A DNA stretch of 64,000 bases from Romanomermis culicivorax. Lineage: Eukaryota; Nematoda; Enoplea; Mermithida; Mermithidae. The position numbers were made by a program, and so were the translations under genes. The notes beneath the pieces are model-generated. The model saw only the letters and a list, made by a program, of their open reading frames with translations, did not search any database and had not been told where the DNA came from. Location: the NCBI GenBank assembly GCA_963922205.1, contig CAWUHX010000015.1, forward strand, positions 1,550,001 through 1,614,000. Direction: 5' to 3'. Below, one piece after another: positions 1 to 39,136 of this stretch (positions are counted from its first letter, which is position 1; each line of letters starts with the position of its first letter).

Positions 1-3000
1 AAAATAAATACAGGGGATGCAGCGCCTGTGGCAAAAAGGTACCACAGGACTGCTATTAATTTACGGCCACATGTTCGTGAGCATGTGCAAGATATGCTCA
101 AAAAGGGTGTAATTGAGCCATCAAAGTCGCCTTGGGCAGCTCCGTTATTCCTGGTAGGTAAAAAGGATGGTACCAAGCGACCAGTAGTGGACTTTAGGGG
201 TATAAATGACGTTACCAAGGATGATAAGTATCCCATTCCTAGAATGGATGACTATCTAGACTGTTTAGGTAAAGCCAAATTTTATACTACCCTAGATCTC
301 AAATCAGGATATTGGCAAGTGCCAATGGATGAAGAAAGCAAGGAAAAAACTGCTTTCATATGCCAAGAAGGGCTTTATCAATTTAAAGTCATGCCCTTTG
401 GCCTAAAAAATGCGCCAGCCGAATTCCAGCGTATGATGGAAAGAGTTTTGCATCCATATGTTTGGAAAATCTGTCTAGTCTATATAGACGATATAATTGT
501 GTTCTCAAATACGTTTGAAGAACACATAGTTAATCTAGAGCTAGTCCTGCAAGCTCTAAGAAAGGCTCATTTGACCTTGAAGCCGGAGAAGTGTGAATTC
601 CTGCCTGAGAGAGTTCATTTTTTAGGACATATCTTAAATTCGGATGGAGTTTCCCCCGATCCGAAAAAGGTCAAAGCTATAAATGATTTCCCATTCCCAG
701 AGTCTAAACGTAAACTGCAAAGGTTTTTAGGTATGTTGCAGTGGTGTAAAAAGTTCATACCGGGTTTGGCTAAACACGCTGAACCGTTGTACAAACTAAC
801 TGGGAAGAACTGTGTTTGGGAAGTCACGGAGGTTCACCATCAGGCTTTTAGGAGCCTGAAAGAAGCACTATTGTCTGTGCCATTCCTTAGGTATCCGGTT
901 TTGGACGGGTCTGCGGACTTTGTCCTTCAGACAGATGCCAGCGGAACGGCACTAGGAGCAGTCCTTTACCAGGAGACCAAGTCAGACCGCTGGGTAATTG
1001 CTTATAATAGCAGAATTTTAAAAGCGGATGAGAAAAAGTGGTCAGCCACGGAAAGGGAATGCTTGGCAATTGTGTATGGCTTGAAGTTATACAAGCACTA
1101 CTTAGTAGGTCATAAAGTGATCATAAGAACTGATCACAAACCTTTATTATCTATGAAGGTCAATGCTATGACCAATGGTAAATTGAAGAGATGGTACTCA
1201 TTCATCTCTCAGTTCAACCATAAACTAGAGTATGTGCCTGGAAAACAAAATGCCATGGCAGACTTTTTGTCAAGGATGGATGAACCAGACGATCAAGCGG
1301 AAAAAATACCGCCAAAATGGGAACACATGTTCTCAGAGGGTAAACGAGAGTCCGAAAATCTGAAAGATCTTGAGGCAAAGCTTATTGAGAAAAAACATCT
1401 CAATTTGGTGAAGAGATTCAGAATTCTGACAGATCGGAATCCTGAAGACGGTACTCCGTTATATCCGGAGCCAAAAGGTAAGAGTAATCAGAGGACTGAA
1501 ATAAGTCCGAGATTCACCCAAATTTATCCAGAGGATTCTGAGGGTGATCCAGAATCAAACTCGCCTGCAGACTTGATAAATGCCGTAACTACAAGGAGCA
1601 TGGCGAAAGAAGCGGACAAGAATAATCAGGCTCAGATCCAGCCTGATAGCAATCAGGTCAAAGATAAGGTAAGTAGGGGAAACCAGGACAAAGGTAAGGA
1701 AAAAAGAGTAACCTGGTTATACCCGGAAAAGGAACAGGAGTTTACTTTGGCAGACCCCAAAGAAGATGAATTGCCAAAAGGGCTAATTAGAGATGATCTC
1801 ATGGCCCTCTTGCAGAGAAAAGATGAGGTACTACAACCATACTTTGATAGATTGGGTCCAAATGGGACAACCAAGTATCATAGTGGATTTTATATCCAAA
1901 ATGAAGTGTTATACCGTGAAGCCGGACAGGGAGCGGATGATCAGGTGGTCATCCCATCCTGCCTTAGGGACAATACTTTGCACCAGTACCACGGTGCCGT
2001 GATGATGACTCATCAGGGGTTCAAAAGGACCCTTGCTATGATTAAAAAACGGTTCTGGTGGCCTGGAATTGAAAAGGATGTCAGGCACTGGATCAAATTT
2101 TGTCCAGTTTGTCAAATGGCTAATCAGGGAAACACAGAAATTCCGCCACTGATACCAATAATTCCACAAGGTCCTTTTGACATAGTATCAGTGGATATCG
2201 TGGGTATTTCTCCACTCAGTGGGAAGAGACCATATGTCATAGTCTTTCAAGACTATTTTACAAAGTGGGTTGAAGCTGAACTGATCCCGGATCAGTCAGC
2301 TAGCACCGTTGTAGATACTTTTCTACAAGCTATTGTATTTAGGCACGGGACTCCACGGAGACTACTCAGCGATAGAGGAGGTTGTTTTACCTCAGATCTA
2401 ATGAAGGAGATCTGCAAGTTATTGGAGTGTCAAAAAATTTTTACAACAGCCTACCATCCACAAGGAAATGGTATGGTAGAAAGGTTTAACCAGACACTCA
2501 TCAAACAGCTCAGAAAGGTGGCCATCGAGGAGAAGGATAACTGGCCAAGATACTTGAGAGCCGTGGTGTTTGCATATAATGCCACACCACATGCAGCCAC
2601 GGGGCAATCCCCATTTTCGTTGCTTAGAGGTCATGAGGCAACCTTCGGGTTAAACTTATCGAAAGCATACGATATTGTAATGCCGGACAGCAATGCTGAG
2701 GCATACAAATTTGTGTTGACAAATCATTTAGTCAACCTTTACGAGGATATTGCCAAAAATATCCAGAGTGCTGCCGAAAAATCGAAGAAATACTTCGATA
2801 AAAAGTCCAAACAAAATGGATTTAAAGAAAAGGATTGGGTTCTGCTCAAAGTAGATAAGCAGAAAAAACTAGGACTACCATGGTCCAGTCCGTTCATAGT
2901 TACGGACATTTCGCGAGAAGCAGAGAACGTTGTCACCATTGTACATTGGGACAACCCGCTAAATCGCCAAACTGTTTCAATCAGCAGGTTGAAACATTTT

Positions 3001-3174
3001 CGTTACGAGACCACTAGGGTCTTGCCGCGAATAGCGCGAGCCAATCAGGACGCGCCACGTGACGAAAATATGTCACTTTCCAATATGGCACAAACAGTTA
3101 CGACTGGAGCGCCGATTCAAATGAAATCATTTGAAAATTCGCTCAAGGCGAATCTATGCGCGATCTCGCGCTGA
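1..3174 (+). CDS. pol: Ty3/gypsy Pol fragment: reverse transcriptase, RNase H, integrase
   Basis: The reading frame is open from base 1, so the protein is cut by the window edge; about 1057 residues remain. It copies the element RNA into DNA and integrates it. RT comes first, with the YIDD catalytic motif at 481-492. RNase H follows (LQTDASGTALGA, ATERECLAIVYG, RTDHKPLL). A charged, low-complexity linker of roughly 170 residues precedes integrase. Integrase has an HHCC zinc finger (H..H...CPVC near 1980-2120) and the D, D, E triad at about 2194, 2371 and 2479, then a GPY/F-like C-terminal patch (GLPWSSPFIV). All catalytic residues seen are present and the frame is unbroken, so the element is young or under selection. 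The stop lies at 3172-3174. No chromodomain was recognised. Confidence 0.95.
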   Translation, partial: KINTGDAAPVAKRYHRTAINLRPHVREHVQDMLKKGVIEPSKSPWAAPLFLVGKKDGTKRPVVDFRGINDVTKDDKYPIPRMDDYLDCLGKAKFYTTLDLKSGYWQVPMDEESKEKTAFICQEGLYQFKVMPFGLKNAPAEFQRMMERVLHPYVWKICLVYIDDIIVFSNTFEEHIVNLELVLQALRKAHLTLKPEKCEFLPERVHFLGHILNSDGVSPDPKKVKAINDFPFPESKRKLQRFLGMLQWCKKFIPGLAKHAEPLYKLTGKNCVWEVTEVHHQAFRSLKEALLSVPFLRYPVLDGSADFVLQTDASGTALGAVLYQETKSDRWVIAYNSRILKADEKKWSATERECLAIVYGLKLYKHYLVGHKVIIRTDHKPLLSMKVNAMTNGKLKRWYSFISQFNHKLEYVPGKQNAMADFLSRMDEPDDQAEKIPPKWEHMFSEGKRESENLKDLEAKLIEKKHLNLVKRFRILTDRNPEDGTPLYPEPKGKSNQRTEISPRFTQIYPEDSEGDPESNSPADLINAVTTRSMAKEADKNNQAQIQPDSNQVKDKVSRGNQDKGKEKRVTWLYPEKEQEFTLADPKEDELPKGLIRDDLMALLQRKDEVLQPYFDRLGPNGTTKYHSGFYIQNEVLYREAGQGADDQVVIPSCLRDNTLHQYHGAVMMTHQGFKRTLAMIKKRFWWPGIEKDVRHWIKFCPVCQMANQGNTEIPPLIPIIPQGPFDIVSVDIVGISPLSGKRPYVIVFQDYFTKWVEAELIPDQSASTVVDTFLQAIVFRHGTPRRLLSDRGGCFTSDLMKEICKLLECQKIFTTAYHPQGNGMVERFNQTLIKQLRKVAIEEKDNWPRYLRAVVFAYNATPHAATGQSPFSLLRGHEATFGLNLSKAYDIVMPDSNAEAYKFVLTNHLVNLYEDIAKNIQSAAEKSKKYFDKKSKQNGFKEKDWVLLKVDKQKKLGLPWSSPFIVTDISREAENVVTIVHWDNPLNRQTVSISRLKHFRYETTRVLPRIARANQDAPRDENMSLSNMAQTVTTGAPIQMKSFENSLKANLCAISR

Positions 3175-3598: not shown

Positions 3599-6500
3599 AT
3601 GGGAAAGGGCGCGCGGAACCGCCAACAAGCTCCGACGCGCGAGTGGTCGCACACAGAGCACCACGTTGAATATGGCAGGGCCCAGCACCGCCAAGACAAT
3701 CGTTTTTTCTTTATCGACGGTAAGTTTCGAACTTATTTTTATCAAATATTCTTGGAAACCGCAGGTAATGCCCAGAAGTCACTGGAAGACCAGCTCGGCG
3801 CCCCAAAGGGCAGACGAGGTTAGGACTTAGAGGGAACGAAAAACGGGAGTACTGAGAAGCGGAAGCTCGAAGCCAAGCAGGGAATTTCCAATTTGGAAAT
3901 ATACCTGATACCACCGAGAGCTATACGATTCAAGGGAAACCTAGAACCTTGGGTTCAGCCCGTTTTAAAGTTTTATCATTCAAAAATTTATCAAAAATTA
4001 TTTATTTTCAAATCAAATCAAATCATATCACTTTTTCGATATAAAATTCATTAAAAATTATCAATTTCGAGCGCTATAAAAATTGTAAATACAGCGCCAT
4101 AAATAAAGCGTAGTTGGTCGCTCAAGCAGCTGGTCAGAGATTGGTGTCCGATCAAGTGGTGGACAATCGGATCAGGTCTACCCTCCCCAACATATAGAGG
4201 TAGCAAGGGTAAGATTTGGTAAGGTGTTAGTTGCCTACCAGCTCAATGTTTGTATATCAGTGGCTCACCTAACAACCTGCACTAAACTTAATTTTCTGCG
4301 AAACTTAACCCGCTTGGTGTTGTGGTGCTGGTGTAGTATAGACCCGAAAATGCGCTGAAAAAAGGGGAATAAAACACTAAAATTAATAGTACTTTATGTT
4401 TAGATTATAACGTCAAATGGGCCGTACGAATCCACGAACTGGATCAGTGGTTTAAAGCCACATTTGGGTACTGGCCGGCCAATCCCAAGGAACCTCGAAT
4501 GGTAGACATCGGGAAGGTCAGCCAGGTACTCCATTTTATCCGAGAAGTGTCAATCTTCAGAGGACAACCAGTTTGTGGCTTCGACATTGAAAAAGTAAAC
4601 CAGGATAAGGTCGCCGCCTTGTTCAAAACAAGGGAGGTCGACAATCCAATGGGAAAGCAGTTTGCCCGATACATCAGCTTCGCGCTAACGAATGGTCAAA
4701 CTTACGTTATTGATACAACGTCGATGATGATCAAAGAGTGGACCAGCCTCCACGATTTCTTGAACTCCGACATGCTCTTCGCCGGATATGCCGTGCTGGA
4801 AGATCTGGTGAGTATCTATAACGTTTGTGGCGCAGGGCGAGATAATAAGGACAGGGACAAAACTGTCCCCTTACGGGAATTTCTAAGAAAGACCAAAGGT
4901 CGATACTTTGACTTAGACCGTTTCGCCCTCACCATGGTAGGAGTAAACCTGGAGAAAAAATGCTTTCAGACAGGTATATGTCCCGAAACCTTTCGGTTAA
5001 AGGGACTGTTCACGGAATTTTATTTGATAGACGTGGGCCCCTACCAATATGACTTTTCGTTAAAAGCGAACCATGATCGGTTTGCCAAAAGGGGTATATT
5101 GCCGGAAGAGCTCAGATACGCCGCTCTAGACGCATACTACTCCTTATTGGTCATGTTTGCCGCCATTCACTATGGCATGGCCGATCAACTGCTTATGCAA
5201 ATGCAGATTTTCGACCATGACAAGGTGGATCCCAAACAGATCAACACCATTGCCCTGCATTTTTATCAGCAATATCTAATGATTCCGGGCAATGTGAACC
5301 GAGAAATGGGGCTAGGTACCCCAGTTATGGAAACCGATCAGGTTCAACCAAATATGGTCTATCACATGATGAAATGTGAGATGTATAACCGTTGGGCGGT
5401 GCAGATGCAGGGAAATAACACAGGTTATTATACCGCGCCCACGGAGTGTAATCCAGTCCGTCCGCAGGGAGTTCAGTTGCCAAGTGGTTTCTACCCACTA
5501 CTTCCAAGAGATAACAAACCAATGAAGGATGACGGATACACCACAGATAGTGATCCCGACGAAATCCAGGACGTCCAGATACCAGACTGGGTTAATATTT
5601 CAAAAGATATCCTGGAAAATCTCAAGTCAGGCGGAGCCTACTGGGATTTAGACGGGAAAATTTCTTTAACTTTATACGAAAACGCCAAGCTATACTGGCA
5701 ACAAGCCGGGAAGCCCGATACCATTCCACAAGAGGTGTTTTCCTCTAATAACCACTACCCAGTGGGTATTGAGGGCCATAGACAGGCCTATAAGACCAGT
5801 TTTTATACGCCGAATTTGGCAAAAATTTCAGGTATGCTGGATGAGCGAAACTTTCCAGAGTTAGAGGTCATCTGCAAATTTATGCCATTGGCCTATCATT
5901 TGGCATGGCCTCATTCCAGAGCAGAGTGCGACTATGAAACTAGCGCTCTGCTAAACTATAACTTTCTAAATAGTTATACTAAAGAAGGCCAGGAAATGAT
6001 AAAGAAAATGTCCTGGAAGTCAGGCGACCGCCTGGCTTACTATTTAGAGTTAGCAGCGACGCTACCGCCGTCGGAACCCCGCTTTCCATCTAAAAAAGGG
6101 GTATACGCATGGCAGAATCGGTTCGGTTTTGTCCCGCTACGATTTCGAGAAGCCGAGGAGATCCTACAAATTGGCGACAACAAATCGTTATTGAAGGACG
6201 GAGCCTACAAGGTAAATCCTTATTTCTATGTAACTTTTTACTACGTAGGCTTCGAGACTTTAACGCCGGGACTGCGGTATCCCATGACGGAAGACGCATC
6301 GCCAACCGACTACCCGATTACCTACGCACCGAGAAATCCGCTCGAGCTCAGACCGGAGTTTGTCAGCAAAAGCTTCCGGGAGAGAACAATCGCTTCGGAA
6401 ATGCCCGGGTATACACTTACATATACCCCAGCCGGTGAGTTAATATCAAAGGTACCGTTAAATCGTCCCTCAACTTCCCAAACGGCGCAAGCCGGAGGGA

Positions 6501-8932
6501 CGGGACAGGTCAAAACGCAGCCGCAGGTGCTAGCGCCAGTGGCCAAAGCTACACCAGCTTTGGACACTGCTGCTACGCAGGCAGCTGCAGTAGTTGTCGT
6601 GGTGCCGCCGCCAATCCAACCAGCGGTTGCACAGCCGACTCAAGTACCTCAAGTACAACAACCGGCCGAGCCTGAGCCAGAGGTTGTCACCATAATGCAA
6701 TCAGTACCTCCAGCACCAGCTGTTTTGCCAGCTAAAGTAAAACAGCTATTGCCGAAGATACGAAATTCAGACTCTGAGTCCAGTTCAGAGGAGGATGTAG
6801 AAGAGGAAGAAGAGGGTGAAATCCTCGAATCTGAGGGCCAGACATCAGAGAATAAGGATGCGATGGAGGCCAAAACTCAGAAACAGGCTCTTGAGGAGGA
6901 AAAAATCCAGACTCAAATCGACGAAGCAGTCACTAAAATGTCGGGAATAGATGTCAGACTGGAGAAGATGCAGGAAGCATCCCAGGAGATACCTGTGAAG
7001 GCCAAAGATCCTAAGGATCATGACCGCCAAGCGAAGCAAGAGGCCTTACAGGCCAAAATTCAAGAACAGAGAAGGCTGACGCAGCAGGAATTCCTGCGTC
7101 AGAGGGCAATCCAAAGAAAGCTGAAGGAGCAGGCACTAGCCGATGATAGCTCAGATTCAGCCATTGCAGCGACAGAGCTGATGCGGAGGGGAAGAATTGC
7201 CGAGGAAGGTATTCCTGGAATTTATTCCCCAGACAAAGTTCAGCAGATGTTAGCTGAAGGGATGTCGGAAAAATTCATCCGGCACCTAGCCAAAGAAAAG
7301 GTAAGGCGTAGAAAGAGAATAGGTAAGGCCAAGCGACGCAGACTTGCAGCTCAAGGACAGCAGCAACAAGGAGCGGCCGCCACCGGATCTGAAAATGACG
7401 CCTATGATACGGCCGAAGAAACGACGACCCCACAATACTCGACGAGCCAAAAGTCGAGATCGGAGACTTCAAAGAGTCAGACGAGAACGGAGACTTCAAA
7501 AAGTCAGACGCGAACGGAGACCTCCATAGGCCAGACAAAATCGGATAGGACAACAGGGTCCACTGCAACAACATCGTACACTCAGACGCGAACGGTATCG
7601 AAAACCGGCGGAGAGGTTAGTACTTCTTCTGGCAAAAGTAAATCCGTGCCCTCCAGCTATACCGCAAGAAGTAGCAAACCTGCGGGAAGCGTATTGGTGA
7701 AGCCCGATCTTGAATCGGAGGAAAAATTGATCAAGAAGGTCAAACTGAATGTGGTAGCTAATAGACCCGAAAGGGAACCACAGCAGTTTGTCACTCCTGG
7801 TCAATTAGCTGAAACTCTGATTGATTATTGGGAGTGGCAACGGGAACAAAGGCGTTTAATTGGGCCGATCTCATTTGAAAATCCGGAGGTCGCCAATTAT
7901 TTCGCCTTTGATCGGCAAGAACGGCCGATAATTTACAGAATGGTCAATGACGCTATGGCCGAAATCCATGAAAATTACCGCCAGCAATTTGAAATGCAGG
8001 GCGGATTTATGTTTGACGGAGAGCGCATCCCTGAGGAGATCTGGGAATGGATAATTTTAATTCTCATCCCCAGATGGCTTCAGGATTACGATGCCTCAGA
8101 CGTCTTTACAGCCATTAGGTATGTGACCCTAATGATTTTTCTTCAGTTGGACTTCGCTCCGATCACGCCAACGGCAATTGGTAGGTGGTATGCCCAGGCG
8201 TGTTCATTCGCGAACAGACAACTAGTCGTTGAGGCCCAGGGAAACCGCGTAGACGATGTCTACATTGCAGCCTTTAATCAGTATATTTTTATGGGCTCGC
8301 AAAGGTTAAACCAGATGGGTGTTAAGAGGAAGGCACCAGGCGATGACAGGTCGCAAGCTGATAAATATCAGCGAACGGCTGCCAAGAGCCCAAGTAAGTT
8401 CAAGGTGCCTAGACTCCCTCGGGCTAAGAAACAACCACCGATGATACAACAATCATCGGCTACGACCAGCCAGAGGTCATATAGTGAAGCTGCTAGCACT
8501 TCTTATAAAAGTCCGCTCTCTCGATCAAAATCAATTTCATCAAAATCTCTTAATTCAACTTATCGGACACAAAAACCGCAGCGTAGCAGCTCCACTAGCA
8601 GTGGTCAAAGGCAGCAGGGGAGAGACGATATGTTCTCAAACCCGGCCCCGTACAGGGCTAGACCGGGGTATGACCAAGGTCAACCCAGGGGAGGCTTCAG
8701 AGGGCGCCCTCAGCGACCTTACAGAGGCCGAGGAACCTGGCAACACCAAGGTCAAGACCCGGATGCTCAATTCCATAATCCGAATTTTATTCCGCTAGGT
8801 AGACGCGGCGGAAGCCAACAAGGCCAAAATAGAATCCAAGACGGAGGTCAAACCCGAGGCCAACCAGGTCAGAGGGGGTACTATCAAGGTAGACCCCGAG
8901 GAGGCTACCGAGGCGGCGGGCAGCAGCAGTAA
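3599..8932 (+). CDS. Spliced retroelement ORF: DEDDy 3'-5' exonuclease domain plus RGG-rich tail
   Basis: Exon 1 is 3599-3719 (ATG, 40 codons plus one base). The intron is 3720-4403 (donor GTAAGT, acceptor TTTAG). Exon 2 is 4404-8932. The join keeps phase, and upstream of the first exon-2 ATG (4499) the frame is open and coding-like back to the acceptor. From that ATG, the DxE of Exo I is D29/E31, the Exo II Asp is D102, and Exo III is Y207-x3-D211. That is the RNase D/WRN-type DEDDy set. Beyond it lie a Pro/Ala-rich stretch, an acidic patch, a Gln/Glu-rich probable coiled coil, a basic [15 protein letters not shown] segment, Ser/Thr repeats and an RGG/RGRP-rich C-terminus. Predicted role: RNA or DNA 3'-end trimming in a ribonucleoprotein. 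It may instead be a divergent gag-like protein or a captured host gene. Confidence 0.75.
3720..4403 (+). other. Intron of the exonuclease gene, with TATA-like and AATAAA motifs
   Basis: The donor is G|GTAAGT and the acceptor TTATGTTTAG|AT. The upstream exon leaves one base and the downstream exon supplies two, giving an uninterrupted frame. In-frame stops at 4334 and 4370 show that the unspliced frame cannot extend further 5'. The intron holds TATAAAA (4075-4081) and AATAAA (4102-4107), which might be an internal promoter or decay of older LTR sequence. Confidence 0.6.
4583..5131 (+). other. DEDDy exonuclease core motifs
   Basis: This span runs from the first catalytic Asp (in GFDIEKV) to the last (in [11 protein letters not shown]). 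The order Asp-x-Glu, Gly-x5-Asp, Tyr-x3-Asp matches the DEDDy branch (RNase D, WRN, EXD2 and Nibbler relatives). Spacing of about 180 residues between first and last Asp is usual for the fold. Confidence 0.75.
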
Positions 8933-29824: not shown

Positions 29825-30728
29825 TGTAACGACCAGATTTGTGTGAGGTACTTTACTTCTAACCAATTGGTCGATACGGCCGGGACAAATACGGGACGGG
29901 GGACGCGGGCGAACGGTTACAACACAACAACGGATAATCGACGGTCGCTTGAACGTCGACAATAAACGCGCTTCGAATAAAAACGGATGGGGGCCTCGGT
30001 TTAAGTGCTTTCGAATAGTCGGCCGCTTGCAAATATATAAAGACGGGGCGAGCGCGGAAAAAACACAAGAATAAGAATCAGAATCAGAATCCGAATCAAT
30101 GATCAAAATCACGCTTTGCTTCTTCTTTTATACGGCGATTCTGGCCACTCCCTGGACGCTGCGGGAGGTCGAGCTTCTGTCCATCTTCTTCCGCCAATCG
30201 TCGTTTCCGGCTACGCTTCTTATGCTTTCTTAGTTACGCCTCTCTAACGCTTTTCTGGTACCGTATGCTTTCTGTGCTTCACTTGCTTTCTACGGTGGGC
30301 TTGGCCACACCTCTGTGCTTCTGTGCATGCTTCCTGTATCGGTTTCTCTGTATACACACGTTTTGTGGGGCCGCCGCTACTGTTACACTTGAGACTACTG
30401 TACGGCGGGGCTTCTACGCATTTTACTGTGTGCAGGTGTTGTTTACGATTTTTACGGGGGATTACGGTAGCTGTGGAATGTGTAGTTTAGTGTAGGTTCT
30501 AGGGGAACAGCTGCCGTTTGTGCAAATTAATTAGGGCATCTTAATTGGGCTACCGGGGTGTGAACGGATCAAAATAAAGTACTTCACGTAATTTTGTAGG
30601 AATGTTTGGGTGTGAATCCCAGACATCCTTGAGACGATAAAATGTGAAAAATAAAATAATATCTAATAAATGTCTGTTACATACAGTATGCTACATGTTT
30701 ACAGTACTGCTTTAGCAGGTACGTTACA
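29825..30728 (-). repeat. 3' LTR of the gag-env-pol element
   Basis: It matches the 5' LTR except at about three sites (for example near 30110 and 30235). Short frames in it are duplicates of those in the other LTR and are not genes. Confidence 0.97.
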
Positions 30729-30741
30729 TTTCCCTCCTTCC
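30729..30741 (-). promoter_or_regulatory. Polypurine tract
   Basis: Read on the minus strand, GGAAGGAGGGAAA abuts the 3' LTR, the expected primer for plus-strand DNA synthesis. It lies within 20 bases of the polyprotein stop. Confidence 0.85.
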
Positions 30742-30759
30742 GGAGTTGAACGTCCTCGT

Positions 30760-33700
30760 TCAAGGCTTTCGAGGTTGAGGAGGGGTGGGGGTAGATGCGA
30801 TAGTTGCTTTCCGAGGGTAGAAAGGGGTTGTCTCGTTTACATGCACCGTGAATGTAATATTCTTATGGGGGTGTTTGAGTGTAACGTTGGGGTACATGAA
30901 GTTTGTAACTGTATAGGGCCCGTTTTGGCGAGGGAGGAATTTGGGAGTCAACCCTTGTTTACACGAATGATTTTTATAAAGTATAAGATCACCTGCCTTG
31001 TAATGTATGTTCTGAGCATGCTTGTTATACTGACGGGTATAGTGGGCTTGGGCTTTTTGCAAACTTTTCTGCACGGTTGAGAGTGCTTCTGTAAAATGCG
31101 ATTTTACACGAAGGGCGTAATCATCTAAATCAACCATGTAGGACGTGGGGAAAAAATTTAAAGCTGTATCTGACGGCAGATTGGCTTGCCTACCGTGGAG
31201 TAATTCAAATGGGGGATATGAAGTGCTATCATTTTTGTGAATGTTGATCGAAAAAACGGCGTATGGGAGATAAGTATCCCAATCAGTGTGATTTGAATTG
31301 ATGTACATGCGGATACAGGTGGCTAGGGTTTGGTTGCAACGCTCAACTTCTCCATTGGCAATGGGATGGTATGGGGTAGTATGAATTTTCTGAGTATTGC
31401 ATAAACTGGTGATCCGTGAGAAAAGATCGGATACGAAATCGGTGCCACGATCACAATGGATGATTTTTGGGGACCCATGACGACAAACAATTTTGGTTAC
31501 GAATAACTTGGCAATAGTGGCTGCGGTGATGTCAGGGGTCGGGAATGCCTCTACATACTTTGTGAAATAATCGATGAAAATGACAATGAATCGGTTGCCG
31601 TCTTCAGTGAGGGGTAATGGTCCCATGCAATCAACACCAACTCGATCAAATGGGCCAGTTGGCTGAATTGGTACCAAATTTGCATGCACCTTGTGTCGGA
31701 GGGCTTTCTGTGTCTGGCATGGGTGGCAAGTTTTGCAGTAACGTTTGATATCACGGCTCATTTGGGGCCAGAAGTATTTCTGCCTGAGCAAGTGTAAAGT
31801 TTTCCTGGCCGCGAAATGGCCTGTGAACTTGCTGTCATGATGGGAGGCGATGAGATGCTGGACTTGGGACTTGGGAATGTATAGTTTTGCCTGTTTGTCG
31901 ATTATACGGAAGAGAATGTTTTGATGCACTGCGAATTTGATCAGAGTGAGGGGGTGTTTTTGGGCGATTTTTGCTAATATGCTTTTGACAGTTGGATCAG
32001 TGCGTTGGAGTTCGGCAAAATTTTTCTGTTGCTCTTCTTGTTCAGTTGCTTCGGCTTCCAAAACTGAATTGATAGTTGATATTTCGGGGCGGGTTTCTAA
32101 TTGTTCAATATCAAAGGATTGCTTTGCTGTCTGTGAGGGGAATCGAGAGACTGCATCTGCATTGCGGTTAGCAGTGCCTTTCTTGGGTCGAATGTCTAGC
32201 TGAATACCGGAGAGGGCTAATCCCCAACGGGCAATGCGAGGGGACGGGTTTTCCTTTTGTAAGACTGCCTGAACTGCTGTGTGGTCAGTGTGTACAATAA
32301 CATGTTGCTGGAAAAGATAGGGGCGGAAATACTTGACAAATTCGACTACTGCAAGGGTTTCTAACTCAGTGATCGGGTAGTTGCGTTCTGCGGGTTTTAG
32401 TGTTCGGCTTCCAAAAGCAATGGGGCGATCCTGACCTTTACTATCTAGCTGACTGAGAATGGCGCCGATTCCGAGTTTCGAGGCGTCAGTTTGCAGAATA
32501 AATGGTTTTGTGAAATCGGGATGCTGCAGTATTGGGGCATGGATGAGTAATTCTTTGAGCTTAGTGAATGCATTTTGCTGTTCAGGGCCCCAGGAAAATT
32601 CGGAATTCTTTTTGAGTAGCGATGTGAGTGGGCTAGAAACTTGAGAGCAATTTGGGATGAATCTGCGATAATATGAGGGTAGGCCAAGGAATGATTTAAC
32701 TTCTTTTGAGCTTTTGGGTGTGGGTATGTCATAAATGGCCTGTACCTTGTGGGGATCTGGTGAAATGCCTTGCTGGGAAATGACGTGGCCTAAGTATTGG
32801 ACTTGGGGCTGGCAGAATTTGCATTTTTGTATGTTTAGCTTAAGGCCTGCTTGTGAGAATCGGGCAAGAATAGTGTCTAAACGTTCCAGCATTTGGGCAT
32901 GGGAGTCTGCGAATACCAAAACATCGTCGAGATACACAAGGCATGTGTTCCATTGCAGACCCGAAAGAATAACATCCATCAACCTTTGGAATGTGGCCGG
33001 GGCATTGGTGAGTCCAAAGGGGAGGTAATTGAATTGATACTGGCCGGCTGAGCAATTGAATGCAGTTTTTTCTCTGTCTGCTTGTGCTATGGGAATGGAA
33101 TAGTATGCATTGGATTGGTCAAGGGACGTGAAATATTTCATTCCATGTAGGGTGTCTAAAATTTCGTCTATGCGAGGCAGGGGGTATGTATCTTTTTTTG
33201 TGACTTTGTTGAGGCCTCTAAAATCAATGCATAAACGATGGCCTCCATCTTTTTTGGGAACTAAAACTGTGTTGGTACACCATGGGGAATTGCTTTGGCT
33301 TATGACACCTGCTTTTGCGAGTTGCTCAACTTCTGCTTGTATGATTTGCTTTTCTTTTGGGGAAGTCCGATAAAGTTGTCTATGTACGGGTTGGGAGCCA
33401 TTAGTGTCAATTGTATGTGAAACAAGGGTGGTTCTACCTACATCCATTTTGGATTTAGCATATAATGTAGGATACTTCGATAGGGCGCGTAAGAGTTGCA
33501 TTTTCTCGGTTTCTGTGAGGTCACTGGAGGTTAAATTGACATTTCCTTTTAACCATGTGAATGTATCAAAACGATTGGGCTGGTTTTGCGTTGAAGGGGT
33601 TAGATTGGTGGGAGCATTTTGTTTTGCGATGTAACATGAGACTGTACCAATGCATGTTCCAGGGTAAAGGATTTGAGCTGTTTCTTGTGTGTTTAGGACG

Positions 33701-36700
33701 GATATGCGTATGCGACTGTTTTGATTTTCAGAGATAGAAGCTGCGAAATGGACTTTGGGATTCTGTTTGGATTTGGGGGTGAATTCAAGCTGTTTGACCT
33801 GTAAGTACGATTTGGGCAAGGGGACAGTAAATTCGGTTACTGTACGGGGTGGTAATTCTAATTTCTCGTCTAGATAAGTTCCACCACGGGTTGAAAGAGG
33901 GCTATATTCTAGGCCATCACAAGGTAGTATAACATTGCCAAATTTGACCTGTGATTTTTGATTGTTGATAGTGTATTCCGAAAATCGACTGAGAAAGTTT
34001 TTGCCTAGAAGGATGTCTGCTGTGCAATCTTTTTGGACATGGACCATGATTGTTTCCTGGATTGTTTGGGCTGTCACTGTGACAAAAGTGGTTCCTACAA
34101 AGTGAATCGGAAGATTATTTGCTGCTTTTGCTTGGACTAGCGGGGGTTTCATGTCTAACTGTAGGATTTGAGCGATTCGGGAATCAATGAGTGAGTAAAC
34201 TGCACCAGTGTCAATCAAGCCTTTTGTAATTAATTTGCCGTTAAGTGTGATTGGAATATGAGGGGTATGTTTCTCAGGTACGTTTTGGGGTGGCTTATTT
34301 GATGCAGATTGCTGAATTTGATTAATGAGTTGGATTGCAGGAGTTCGGGGGGTATCGATATCGACAAGGACGTATTTCTGCTGCGTTTGTGCCCCACGAC
34401 GATTAGCTAATTCTAAGAGAGCATAGCCGAATGATGGGGGTATGGCCTCATGTAAATGTCTGTTGTTTGAAGGTATTTCGTATGCATGTTCGTTTGTGGC
34501 ATGATGCTTTGGGGAGGGGAAGTATTTTCGAAGAACGAGAGACGAATAAAAGACGCCTGCAATAACTACAGTAATAACGGCGAGATTGATAATGATTTGC
34601 AGGGGTCCTTTGAGTAAATTGTTTAATCCATCTGTGAGACTTTGGGTGGTACCGGTAATTACATGTTCTATGCCTTGACCGGCGCCAGAGAGTGTATTTC
34701 CGAGTGCTTGGCCAGTGCCTGAGATCATGGTGTAAACTGTATCGGAATTGAGAGACATTTGGGCGGTGTAATTGACGAGTTTTTTGACAATGTTTTCAAG
34801 TGTGTGAGTTTTATAAATGTATTGTTTCAAAAAGAGTAAGTTTGTCGAAATTGTTGCAAGTTGATCATGGAAAATTGCGGGTGTATTAAAATGGAAAAGG
34901 GAAAAATTTTGGTTCCAGACAATTTCTAAGGGTAAGTTTGTAACATGTGGGGATCCTGTTTCACTGACCCATGTATTATTCTGTTTGTAAAGGGCTACAT
35001 GCATGTGATGGCAGTCAACGGTTTGTGAGAAAGGGGTCAAATCGTTGCCTCCTGGATTTGAAAACATGAGTTCGGTTCCTACGAGAATGGGCAAAAGTTT
35101 GTAGCATGTTTGGTTGATTTTATGGTTGTAAAAGACTTTGGATGCGTTTACTTGTTTGCAGGGCCAGACTGTGAGGGCTTCTCCTGTAAATTCTGCTATG
35201 ATGTCGGTTCTCTGTAGGAATGCACGTGCTCCAAGGGTTGCGTCAAGACGTAAAATTTGCCATACGAGATCAAGGTGACGCTGTGCCTGTCTGCATAATT
35301 CACTCCATACGTTTTTGAAATTTTGAATTTCGAATTCCTGTATTTTGTCCGCTAGATAGTTTAGTTTTGCATTGATGGGTTCAAAATCATCAAAATCGTA
35401 TAGTGTAGTATGAGTTTCGTTGGTTTTTGGGGTTAAAAATGCATTACGATGTGGGGTGCTTTTGTCTAATTGTACAATAATGCCTTGTTCGGTTAGAATG
35501 CTGTCTTGGATTTCTGGGCAATTGGGGTTCGAAAAAACTGTATTTTTAACCGAGAATGCACCTTGTAGCTCTTCTATTATCATGTGTGTTTGCGTGAGTT
35601 TGATGGGATGTGTATTTTTGTATTCGAAAGGGCATAAGTTTTCAAATGCTGTTTCATTCCAGATAATGGATCCGTCGGCTGTGACACAATGACCTGATGT
35701 TGGTTTGCATGACCCTAGGTCGCCTAATGTACCTGTCATAGATTTTCCATTCCAAGATGCTATTTGTCCTATTTCTATGATGACGTTAGTGACCGAGGTA
35801 CAATGGTCTGTACAACACCATGTGTATTCTACGCTTAGGGAGTTATTTGTTGACCAAAATCCTGGTTGAGTTTCGTATAATTTTTGACCGTTGTGTTCTT
35901 TGTCTATAACGACTGCCTTACAAACATGTGGGGTTAGATTTTGCATTTCGGTTTGGTCGAAGACAATACCTTTTGATCCAAAAAATCCTGTATTAGTACA
36001 AATTTTGCATTTGCGAACACTGCATTTGTATGCGTCTGTAATGTGGGGCTTAGTGGAGGGGATATAGATTTTTCCGAATGTTTGTACGGGTTTGTCTACT
36101 GTGGAAGGGGGCATGCATGATACAAGTTTTGGTATGCTGACTGAGTGACCGCTCAATGAAGTTCCACACATCTGAAATTGGGCACTACACGATGTGGGGA
36201 TTATTATACATAAAAATATACAATACAATGGCCAATGTAGTGGTTTAGTGGAGGCGGCGGGGTACTGTATATTTTCGTTCTGTTCGATTTGGCGTGGCGG
36301 TTTTTGGTGTTGTCGTTTTGCGATTTTGGGCTGGGGGGGTGGCCGGTTTGAAATCTGAACGGTCTGTAAAACTTTAGAAGTTGAGTTATGGGGTGGGGTT
36401 TGGACTTGCTTACTTGCGGGGGTCGGTAGCAATGTTTGGCGGGGGCGAATATGGTAGGGTTCAGGGGTCAGGCCGTGTAAGAGGGACAATAAGTTGCGAC
36501 CTGTTTTCGATGGGGTTTCTGGGGCGGTGGGCGGCGTTGTGTCTTGCTTTCGGGGGATCTTGTAGCCTACGGGGATGGTGGGCGGCGATTTTTCGATTTT
36601 TTCGGCTTCAGGCATGGGGGGTGGTGACATGGCGCACCAATCGGGTACGTCCAGATCAAGGACGTATTCGTCACTACGGCGGTGGGTGTTGGGCATGATA

Positions 36701-37989
36701 GTTCCTAAAGTAGTCTGAGGGCCGTTAGTTATGGCGGGTAATTTTGAGTAAAATGCGGGGTCATCAATGTCCATGAGGGGTTGGGGTTGCCTGTACTCAA
36801 TGCAATTTTGAATATTACGACTCTGCTGATTTGGACAATACCTGCTTGTATGACCTCTCTGCTTGCATATAAAACATTGAAAATTGGAGTAGGGTTTTGA
36901 AGGGCAGTTATCTGATCTATGTCCTGTTTGGGAGCAGTGGATGCATGGGCTTTTACAATCACGTGTACTGTGATTATTACGGAAACAGATTTCACATGAT
37001 TTTCGGGTGCCTACTGATTTACAGTTACGAGCTACGTGTCCGATTTGTCCACACTGGAAGCATGTGGGTTGCCTGGGGGTGGTATTGTTCCTGTAAGCAT
37101 TATTCCTGCTGAAAGTGTTGTTACTGAAATTGTTGTAGCTACTCTGTTGTGGGGGTTGAGGTTTTTGTTTGATCTGCAACTGTAAATCTTTTACTTGTTG
37201 TTCTAACTGATGCAAAAGATCCTGTTGGTCTGTATTTTTGGTTAGGGAAAAGATGGGTTCGGGTTTTGGGGGTATGAAGGGAAGGACATTAGATTTTAAC
37301 TCATTTCTAAGGATTTGTTGTTCAATGTAAGCTGCTTCGTCTGACATTTCTTTTAGAGTTGCGAACCTTCTATACTTAATTGCTTCCCTGATTTCGTTTT
37401 GCATGCCTTCTACAAAGAGGGGTTTTATGATCATTTCTCGTGCGTCTGTGTTAAAGTTAGGGTAGGCGAGGGTTGCGAGATGTTCTAGATCAAATAAGAA
37501 TTCCGTTACTGTTTCTGATCGCTTTTGTTTTCTTTCGCGTAAGAATTGTTGATGTAGCTCATTATCTCTATTGTTTGGGAAAAATGCCTGTAATGCGACT
37601 TTATACTGCTCGTATGTGTGGGGAGGGTTTTCGGAATTTGCTAAACTTTTGAATTTTGCTAACGCGGCTCCTCCTAAATGAATTTCTAAACATGCCAACT
37701 TTAACTGTACGTCTGTATCTTTCATGCCTTGGAGTGCCATGAATTGTTCTAATCTTTTGTTCCATTCACCAAAATGTTGGGTCACGCCGCCCGTGAATAC
37801 TGTAGGTTTCGCGTAGAAATTGTTTGCCATGTTATTACGAATGTTTGCTGTTCTTAGATCGTCTATTAGGGTAGGGTTTACTGTATTCTGATTCAATTGT
37901 GTGCGTAGGGTACGAAAATGTTCTGAAAATAAATCGTTTATCTGTTCTCTAACGATTTCTCCTAAATGATCTTGCGTTTGGTGGGTCAT
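30760..37989 (-). CDS. Gag-(envelope-like)-Pol polyprotein of the LTR element
   Basis: The first in-frame ATG after the LTR is at 37989; the open frame reaching into the LTR has no ATG. About 2409 residues. In order: retrotransposon-type gag; four CCHC zinc knuckles (about 36840-37065); a hydrophobic leader (near 36180-36240); a Cys-rich ectodomain; a membrane helix (IIINLAVITVVIAGVFY, near 34545-34600); an aspartic protease with DTG (near 34200); RT with YLDD (32923-32934); RNase H (LQTDAS, TELET, TDH); integrase with an HHCC finger and D, D, E residues (VDCMG, CDRGTDF, NGEVER). No stop or frameshift breaks the frame, so the element could be competent. Fusing a membrane glycoprotein inside one ORF implies cleavage, splicing or re-initiation to free it. 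The viral origin of the glycoprotein is not resolved. Confidence 0.93.
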   Translation of the reverse strand: MTHQTQDHLGEIVREQINDLFSEHFRTLRTQLNQNTVNPTLIDDLRTANIRNNMANNFYAKPTVFTGGVTQHFGEWNKRLEQFMALQGMKDTDVQLKLACLEIHLGGAALAKFKSLANSENPPHTYEQYKVALQAFFPNNRDNELHQQFLRERKQKRSETVTEFLFDLEHLATLAYPNFNTDAREMIIKPLFVEGMQNEIREAIKYRRFATLKEMSDEAAYIEQQILRNELKSNVLPFIPPKPEPIFSLTKNTDQQDLLHQLEQQVKDLQLQIKQKPQPPQQSSYNNFSNNTFSRNNAYRNNTTPRQPTCFQCGQIGHVARNCKSVGTRKSCEICFRNNHSTRDCKSPCIHCSQTGHRSDNCPSKPYSNFQCFICKQRGHTSRYCPNQQSRNIQNCIEYRQPQPLMDIDDPAFYSKLPAITNGPQTTLGTIMPNTHRRSDEYVLDLDVPDWCAMSPPPMPEAEKIEKSPPTIPVGYKIPRKQDTTPPTAPETPSKTGRNLLSLLHGLTPEPYHIRPRQTLLPTPASKQVQTPPHNSTSKVLQTVQISNRPPPQPKIAKRQHQKPPRQIEQNENIQYPAASTKPLHWPLYCIFLCIIIPTSCSAQFQMCGTSLSGHSVSIPKLVSCMPPSTVDKPVQTFGKIYIPSTKPHITDAYKCSVRKCKICTNTGFFGSKGIVFDQTEMQNLTPHVCKAVVIDKEHNGQKLYETQPGFWSTNNSLSVEYTWCCTDHCTSVTNVIIEIGQIASWNGKSMTGTLGDLGSCKPTSGHCVTADGSIIWNETAFENLCPFEYKNTHPIKLTQTHMIIEELQGAFSVKNTVFSNPNCPEIQDSILTEQGIIVQLDKSTPHRNAFLTPKTNETHTTLYDFDDFEPINAKLNYLADKIQEFEIQNFKNVWSELCRQAQRHLDLVWQILRLDATLGARAFLQRTDIIAEFTGEALTVWPCKQVNASKVFYNHKINQTCYKLLPILVGTELMFSNPGGNDLTPFSQTVDCHHMHVALYKQNNTWVSETGSPHVTNLPLEIVWNQNFSLFHFNTPAIFHDQLATISTNLLFLKQYIYKTHTLENIVKKLVNYTAQMSLNSDTVYTMISGTGQALGNTLSGAGQGIEHVITGTTQSLTDGLNNLLKGPLQIIINLAVITVVIAGVFYSSLVLRKYFPSPKHHATNEHAYEIPSNNRHLHEAIPPSFGYALLELANRRGAQTQQKYVLVDIDTPRTPAIQLINQIQQSASNKPPQNVPEKHTPHIPITLNGKLITKGLIDTGAVYSLIDSRIAQILQLDMKPPLVQAKAANNLPIHFVGTTFVTVTAQTIQETIMVHVQKDCTADILLGKNFLSRFSEYTINNQKSQVKFGNVILPCDGLEYSPLSTRGGTYLDEKLELPPRTVTEFTVPLPKSYLQVKQLEFTPKSKQNPKVHFAASISENQNSRIRISVLNTQETAQILYPGTCIGTVSCYIAKQNAPTNLTPSTQNQPNRFDTFTWLKGNVNLTSSDLTETEKMQLLRALSKYPTLYAKSKMDVGRTTLVSHTIDTNGSQPVHRQLYRTSPKEKQIIQAEVEQLAKAGVISQSNSPWCTNTVLVPKKDGGHRLCIDFRGLNKVTKKDTYPLPRIDEILDTLHGMKYFTSLDQSNAYYSIPIAQADREKTAFNCSAGQYQFNYLPFGLTNAPATFQRLMDVILSGLQWNTCLVYLDDVLVFADSHAQMLERLDTILARFSQAGLKLNIQKCKFCQPQVQYLGHVISQQGISPDPHKVQAIYDIPTPKSSKEVKSFLGLPSYYRRFIPNCSQVSSPLTSLLKKNSEFSWGPEQQNAFTKLKELLIHAPILQHPDFTKPFILQTDASKLGIGAILSQLDSKGQDRPIAFGSRTLKPAERNYPITELETLAVVEFVKYFRPYLFQQHVIVHTDHTAVQAVLQKENPSPRIARWGLALSGIQLDIRPKKGTANRNADAVSRFPSQTAKQSFDIEQLETRPEISTINSVLEAEATEQEEQQKNFAELQRTDPTVKSILAKIAQKHPLTLIKFAVHQNILFRIIDKQAKLYIPKSQVQHLIASHHDSKFTGHFAARKTLHLLRQKYFWPQMSRDIKRYCKTCHPCQTQKALRHKVHANLVPIQPTGPFDRVGVDCMGPLPLTEDGNRFIVIFIDYFTKYVEAFPTPDITAATIAKLFVTKIVCRHGSPKIIHCDRGTDFVSDLFSRITSLCNTQKIHTTPYHPIANGEVERCNQTLATCIRMYINSNHTDWDTYLPYAVFSINIHKNDSTSYPPFELLHGRQANLPSDTALNFFPTSYMVDLDDYALRVKSHFTEALSTVQKSLQKAQAHYTRQYNKHAQNIHYKAGDLILYKNHSCKQGLTPKFLPRQNGPYTVTNFMYPNVTLKHPHKNITFTVHVNETTPFYPRKATIASTPTPPQPRKP
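34510..36240 (-). other. Envelope-like glycoprotein domain between gag and protease
   Basis: About 575 residues with a hydrophobic start (YCIFLCIIIPTSC), many cysteines including CC pairs (YTWCCTDHCTS), several N-x-S/T sites, amphipathic stretches before the end, and one strong C-terminal membrane helix followed by basic RKYF. This is the plan of a class I/III-type viral membrane glycoprotein with a single anchor. The Cys pattern reminded me of glycoproteins of invertebrate negative-strand RNA viruses, but no family could be fixed. Confidence 0.65.
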
Positions 37990-38210
37990 TCTTGGTTTAC
38001 GATGGGATTTCTGCTTAAATGCTTCAATTTTTGCTTCACGCTGTATTCGTTTAAATGTATCGCTTAATGCTTCGTTGGAGGGGGTTTCCAGTTTGCTTAA
38101 TACGAATACCGTCTTACTGTAGGAAATGATTACTACTGTATTATCTAATGCTTCTAAACGCCCGGATAAGAGTACACCTAACTGGGGGCAGGGAGTTCCA
38201 CTGGTTAACG

Positions 38211-38227
38211 TAACGGTACGGTCACCA
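38211..38227 (-). promoter_or_regulatory. Primer-binding site
   Basis: On the minus strand TGGTGACCGTACCGTTA starts five bases after the 5' LTR. TGG is complementary to a tRNA CCA end. The tRNA was not identified. Confidence 0.65.
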
Positions 38228-38232
38228 AAATA

Positions 38233-39136
38233 TGTAACGACCAGATTTGTGTGAGGTACTTTACTTCTAACCAATTGGTCGATACGGCCGGGACAAATAC
38301 GGGACGGGGGACGCGGGCGAACGGTTACAACACAACAACGGATAATCGACGGTCGCTTGAACGTCGACAATAAACGCGCTTCGAATAAAAACGGATGGGG
38401 GCCTCGGTTTAAGTGCTTTCGAATAGTCGGCCGCTTGCAAATATATAAAGACGGGGCGAGCGCGGAAAAAACACAAGAATAAGAATCAGAATCAGAATCC
38501 GAATCAATGATCAAAATCACACTTTGCTTCTTCTTTTATACGGCGATTCTGGCCACTCCCTGGACGCTGCGGGAGGTCGAGCTTCTGTCCATCTTCTTCC
38601 GCCAATCGTCGTTTCCGGCTACGCTTCTTATGCTTTCTTAGTTACACCTCTCTAACGCTTTTCTGGTACCGTATGCTTTCTGTGCTTCACTTGCTTTCTA
38701 CGGTGGGCTTGGCCACACCTCTGTGCTTCTGTGCATGCTTCCTGTATCGGTTTCTCTGTATACACACGTTTTGTGGGGCCGCCGCTACTGTTACGCTTGA
38801 GACTACTGTACGGCGGGGCTTCTACGCATTTTACTGTGTGCAGGTGTTGTTTACGATTTTTACGGGGGATTACGGTAGCTGTGGAATGTGTAGTTTAGTG
38901 TAGGTTCTAGGGGAACAGCTGCCGTTTGTGCAAATTAATTAGGGCATCTTAATTGGGCTACCGGGGTGTGAACGGATCAAAATAAAGTACTTCACGTAAT
39001 TTTGTAGGAATGTTTGGGTGTGAATCCCAGACATCCTTGAGACGATAAAATGTGAAAAATAAAATAATATCTAATAAATGTCTGTTACATACAGTATGCT
39101 ACATGTTTACAGTACTGCTTTAGCAGGTACGTTACA
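38233..39136 (-). repeat. 5' LTR of the gag-env-pol element
   Basis: 904 bp, TGTAACG...CGTTACA. A TATATAAAG-type box lies near 38440-38450 in either orientation, but the true start site cannot be fixed by reading. Confidence 0.97.

Follow-up and report, generated by a model that had tools for sequence, protein, structure and literature searches.

An envelope gene between gag and pol in a single-frame Ty3/Gypsy-type element of the nematode Romanomermis culicivorax

The env gene of gypsy-type elements is expressed from a spliced RNA. In the Metaviridae, the ICTV profile of the family places the Env-coding region downstream of the integrase (PMC7879559). Envelope genes of negative-strand virus type are also described in other LTR elements, such as Atlas virus, reported to encode one Gag-Pol-Env polyprotein with an Env from a negative-strand RNA virus (PMC9094657), and Anakin, a BEL/Pao LTR element with a chuvirus-like glycoprotein (PMC7642597). 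A 2023 survey reports no clear glycoprotein capture by Gypsy (PMC10084718), and PMC13172572, citing Chary and Hayashi 2025, refers to gypsy elements with type III glycoproteins, so that this type of Env in a Gypsy element is probably not new. We analyse here a stretch of 64,000 nucleotides of the R. culicivorax genome (contig CAWUHX010000015.1 of GCA_963922205.1, positions 1,550,001 to 1,614,000), referred to as the window, in which an earlier note had proposed a single ORF with an envelope-like region between gag and protease.

Anatomy of the element and of its reading frame

The window contains a complete Ty3/Gypsy-type element of 9.3 kb on the minus strand (29825-39136), composed of the following features, given from its 5' to its 3' end in window positions:

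38233-39136, minus: 5' LTR, 904 bp, identical to the 3' LTR at 901 of 904 positions
38209-38227, minus: candidate primer binding site, beginning TGGTGACC, proposed from its position and TGG start only
30760-37989, minus: single ORF Gag-Env-Pol, 2409 codons plus stop
37462-37683, minus: capsid match (Pfam Retrotrans_gag, E 2.5e-5)
36835-37062, minus: four CCHC zinc knuckles (nucleocapsid), from four pattern matches, two of them scored by zf-CCHC
36181-36240, minus: internal signal peptide LHWPLYCIFLCIIIPTSCSA, predicted from hydrophobicity, with a putative cleavage site
34597-36180, minus: predicted class III glycoprotein ectodomain, with the PF24664 match at 34906-35424
34537-34596, minus: transmembrane anchor, predicted from hydrophobicity
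34255-34536, minus: predicted cytoplasmic tail and linker to the protease
33985-34254, minus: aspartic protease with DTGA motif (Pfam gag-asp_proteas)
32779-33261, minus: reverse transcriptase (Pfam RVT_1 match)
32209-32592, minus: RNase H (Pfam)
31363-31878, minus: integrase, H2C2 finger and rve core (Pfam)
30729-30741, minus: polypurine tract GGAAGGAGGGAAA, before the 3' LTR, read by eye
29825-30728, minus: 3' LTR, 904 bp; target-site duplication GAGT at the flanks, read by eye

With only 3 mismatches over the 904 bp of the LTR pair, and termini TGTAACG/CGTTACA, the element is a complete and young insertion. The minus-strand frame is free of stops from 38520 to 30763, its upper end entering the 5' LTR, and is closed by the stop codon at 30762-30760; as the leader contains no in-frame Met and the first in-frame ATG lies at 37989, the gene comprises 2409 codons. 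The intact frame and nearly identical LTRs described in the earlier note are thereby confirmed, as are the limits of the locus, which is to be read on the minus strand. The ORF was scanned against Pfam as four pieces and gave matches in the order Retrotrans_gag, zf-CCHC, Monjiviricetes_fusion (PF24664), gag-asp_proteas, RVT_1, RT_RNaseH, Integrase_H2C2 and rve, which together with the frame scan establishes the single-ORF order gag, env, protease, RT, RNase H and integrase that had been proposed. Between the knuckles and the protease, only two hydrophobic segments were found, the signal peptide and the transmembrane anchor.

The Ty3/Gypsy features comprise the PR-RT-RNase H-IN order with Gypsy-type domains in Pfam and the TG..CA LTRs with a short target-site duplication. 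None of the four ORF pieces matched a BEL-specific Pfam model at an E value of 0.1 or below, and the RNase H and integrase are Gypsy-type. The errantivirus feature of an env downstream of the integrase is absent.

The window also carries a second Gypsy pol on the plus strand (28-3174), with RT, RNase H and integrase, followed at 4499-8932 (plus) by an ORF of 1477 codons that has no Pfam match and an RGG-rich end. The N-terminus of this ORF displays motifs reminiscent of DEDDy exonucleases; ORF3s of this kind are described in LTR elements of bdelloid rotifers (PMC5408684).

Copies, families and relatives beyond the genome

Copies were searched for in the 359-Mb assembly, whose 36 Wnt matches indicate an animal host; Chitin_bind_4 found no match there, nor did its controls. 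With PF24664, 68 of 2320 candidates were scored, all 68 over the cut-off and 13 within frames that run for 2000 codons or more without a stop, and 40 of these 68 places were read. In these 40 copies, gag lies upstream of env without exception, protease downstream in 39 and RT downstream in 38, and the three are all in order in 38 of the 40 (exceptions L014 and L044). This recurrence of the same order on many contigs, together with the relatives outside the genome, refutes the view that the env region results from misassembly or from the recent entry of a viral glycoprotein gene into a single Gypsy copy, an explanation left with practically no probability; the insertion unique to this locus that the earlier note had considered as an objection is ruled out on the same grounds. 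A knuckle, env, protease and RT share one open frame in 12 copies, from families A, B and C (L013, L017-L021, L025, L026, L028, L033, L041, with a partial RT, and L047), and the other 28 present a stop or shift somewhere in the knuckle-RT span.

The 40 copies belong to families A (that of the window element), B, C, D and E, the last with L009 as its sole copy, for which one frame is not shown. The Env DNA of A, B and E is 64-69% identical in best local matches, and only short stretches of C and D Env DNA match the other families. Pfam recognised gag and knuckles in family B, the capsid match falling below the cut-off in C and D, and protease (over or below the cut-off) and RT follow env in B, C and D. 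A search with the Env of family D returned 80 matches (77 of 4047 candidates scored), of which 13 lie in uninterrupted frames of 2000 codons or longer; this count omits three further long frames with an internal stop. Three further families, D2-D4, with Env at 62-68% to the D Env, were read at the two junctions only; each presents exactly one stop-free frame from knuckle to signal peptide and one from the transmembrane segment onward, and the protease match narrowly exceeds the cut-off in D2 and falls short of it in D3, while in D4 only the DSG motif is visible. The gag-env linker of L016, a family D copy, is interrupted by a stop; a conserved gag-env stop in this family was considered and rejected, as the two sister copies L023 and L029 lack it.

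Several local observations accompany these searches. One of the three long frames omitted above, of 24354 codons around the env match at G000:C371:149115, is implausible and probably due to masked bases taken as open. Three env matches at G000:C180 (404, 8769 and 17134) are spaced by exactly 8365 bases and share the same stop, as in a head-to-tail array of elements or an assembly repeat. The PR-RT interval of L016 (3860-5899) gave a weak dCTP deaminase/dUTPase-like match (E 0.009, below the cut-off), a dUTPase between PR and RT being described in bdelloid LTR elements (PMC5408684). In L049 and L051, the linker before the signal peptide displays basic stretches with RSRR, RPRR and RSKR, on the predicted cytosolic side.

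Five distinct relatives were found in a protein collection. In P0003, env follows an apparent BEL integrase tail (DUF5641, E 0.015, below the cut-off), P0004 and P0005 are env only, and a single protein, P0006, unites env, PR, RT and RH (36% identity across 917 columns). The first 500 residues of P0007 match Gag (family A, E 1.4e-15; 102 bits against a profile of four Gags, versus 1.2 for the reversed-sequence control) and are followed by a signal peptide, Env, a transmembrane segment and a final tail, Pfam naming the Env part alone. Both junctions therefore exist outside this genome, Env-PR-RT in P0006 and Gag-Env in P0007; a complete Gag-Env-Pol protein was not seen among these five relatives. 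P0007 does not reach a protease, so that not all relatives have Pol in the fusion; its Gag-Env frame stops about where a protease would start (residues 1075-1186), and translation of its Pol may depend on a frameshift or an independent start. The viral contig and genome contig collections searched returned no confirmed relatives.

The Env and RT distances are correlated (r=0.90, 15 pairs from six lineages), which argues for an old gag-env-pol arrangement, and the Envs of the lineages compared differ at 40-66% of sites. In the Env tree and in the RT tree, the latter built from the families of this host, P0006 and the second Gypsy element of the window, B pairs with E and A is the next to join; the deeper Env forks are weak. 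The RT of P0006 groups with A, B, C and E to the exclusion of D (98/96), the other Gypsy of the window forming a long-branched outgroup. The arrangement is thus older than the families and also present beyond this host.

Class and conservation of the glycoprotein

At the level of sequence, the PF24664 match (E=7.7e-19, 67.5 bits for a cut-off of 27) places the ectodomain among the class III fusion glycoproteins. The structural comparison with viral glycoprotein classes suggested in the earlier note points the same way, with modest confidence, as the predicted model is closest to herpesvirus gB and to G proteins of negative-strand viruses. The model retained was built from 6 sequences (pLDDT 58.4), a 5-sequence model (pLDDT 45.2) being too poor and set aside, and a sequence search of solved structures gave no match at E 1. 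The ectodomain contains 12 invariant cysteines and a small excess of sequons (8, 8, 6 and 5 for 5.8, 4.6, 4.0 and 2.8 expected); sequons are also in excess in the Gag of family D (11 versus 7.3).

Codon comparisons between families show strong purifying selection on Env. Differences at the three codon positions range from 0.34/0.21/0.59 (A-B) up to 0.52/0.39/0.64 (D-E), with dN of 0.31-0.72 for a dS of 2.3 or saturated. Env is also better conserved than Gag and protease in the six family pairs for which all were compared (6/6); between A and B, identity is 57% for env, 41% for gag, 41% for PR and 66% for RT. These data bear on the alternative that Env is translated but is no longer a fusogen, serving as an intracellular membrane anchor of the particle in an element that spreads within the genome only. 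The presence of more than 100 copies in one genome is compatible with germ-line retrotransposition alone, but the whole ectodomain with its 12 invariant cysteines has been kept under purifying selection, and better than Gag or protease in all six pairs, which makes this alternative improbable. The view in the earlier note that the design appears to work rests on old, constrained copies in multiple families.

Expression as one chain and comparison with known systems

With env in the middle of the chain, the product would have to cross the membrane and then return before the enzymes are made. Each readable family representative has one signal peptide and one transmembrane segment, an even number of membrane segments, which would bring the chain back into the cytosol and leave Gag and Pol on the same side. 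We favour, with moderate confidence, an old Ty3/Gypsy-type lineage with a class III Env between Gag and protease, whose single RNA would be translated as a Gag-Env-Pol polyprotein threaded through the ER. The internal signal peptide would direct the ribosome to the ER and Gag would be freed by signal peptidase; the ectodomain would enter the ER lumen until transfer is halted by the transmembrane anchor, and protease, RT and integrase would then extend the Env tail on the cytosolic side, to be cut off later by the element's own protease. The element may be infectious. Comparable cutting occurs in the structural polyproteins of some positive-strand RNA viruses.

The nearest Met before the signal peptide lies 125 residues away in A, 35 in B and 71 in C, which argues against a simple start of env on its own in these families. 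Family D speaks against the polyprotein, with Met at 4 and 9 residues ahead of its signal peptide, as do the linker stop of L016, the donor-like sites of the linker, strongest in A and D, the lack of Pol in P0007, the single copy of family E, the small sequon excess of the ectodomain and the modest confidence of the Env model. The main difficulty is the awkward ratio of Gag, Env and Pol, fixed at 1:1:1 in such a chain; the linkers and ectodomains of A-D contain no NPGP motif for 2A-type skipping, and the same holds for L049-L051.

Splicing would resolve the problems of both stoichiometry and topology. The same element would then produce one RNA from which env is dropped in frame, giving Gag-Pol, and another joining the 5' leader or the start of gag to env, the long frame being partly a by-product. 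A 3' gene of Cer1, cerv, is described as expressed from a spliced mRNA (PMC10309623). From leader to RT, a splice scan found one donor of at least 7 bits, for about 3.9 expected from block shuffles, and no acceptor, for about 0.3 expected, using a matrix that may not fit host splicing, which makes this a weak test. That sole donor sits in the gag-env linker (36413), where the best donors score 8.0 in A, 5.6 in B, 6.9 in C and 10.3 in D with the same matrix, and a leader site, ACA|GTAAGA, scores 5.3. However, the linker donors occupy differing places among A-D, the best acceptors before the protease reach only 1.3, -1.1, -2.1 and 1.8 in A, B, C and D, the linkers are open in A, B, C, D2, D3 and D4, and relatives outside the genome again show Env-Pol and Gag-Env fusions. 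We consider this alternative unlikely, while giving it some weight; env as an intron, an objection foreseen in the earlier note, is likewise not supported by this weak scan, donor-like sites being nevertheless present.

A broader form of the polyprotein reading is offered more tentatively: a deep lineage of Gypsy-type retroviruses may have replaced gag-pol-env by a one-chain gag-env-pol, in which Env would be a membrane-spanning middle domain rather than a separate product and Pol a cytoplasmic extension of a trimerising Env, so that the incorporation of Env, the packaging of Pol and the activation of the protease would be coupled. The recurrence of gag-env-pol in one frame across divergent lineages indicates that a different order of genes can be maintained and spread, and documents a class III glycoprotein diversified alongside a Gypsy polymerase. 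It also poses a testable question: is one chain, with Gag and Pol cytosolic and Env luminal, cut by signal peptidase and a viral protease?

No report of env between gag and pol was found in the literature searched, and the internal position of Env appears new to that extent; a study of envelope-carrying metazoan gypsy elements by Chary and Hayashi (2025, eLife 108449) may already show it. In the design described in the earlier note, the unusual part is the internal position of Env, an Env-bearing polyprotein as such having a precedent in Atlas virus (PMC9094657).

The Metaviridae, errantiviruses included, share with this element the LTRs, Gag, PR-RT-RH-IN order and, in some members, an env, but their Env follows the integrase, whereas here it stands between Gag and protease and shares their frame. 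Belpaoviruses such as Atlas virus likewise join Gag, Pol and a negative-strand-virus Env in one polyprotein, but with a BEL/Pao polymerase, a class II Env and Env last in the chain. Anakin is described with a related type of glycoprotein in an LTR element, and its Pao polymerase is unlike the Gypsy-type polymerase found here. Troyka elements are animal LTR elements with a single-frame Gag-Pol (PMC12440569), which differ by CG..CG termini, 3-bp target-site duplications and the lack of an envelope, compared with TG..CA termini and a 4-bp duplication here. Rhabdovirus- and chuvirus-like G proteins and herpesvirus gB are class III relatives of this Env, which differs from them in being an internal domain of a retroelement polyprotein.
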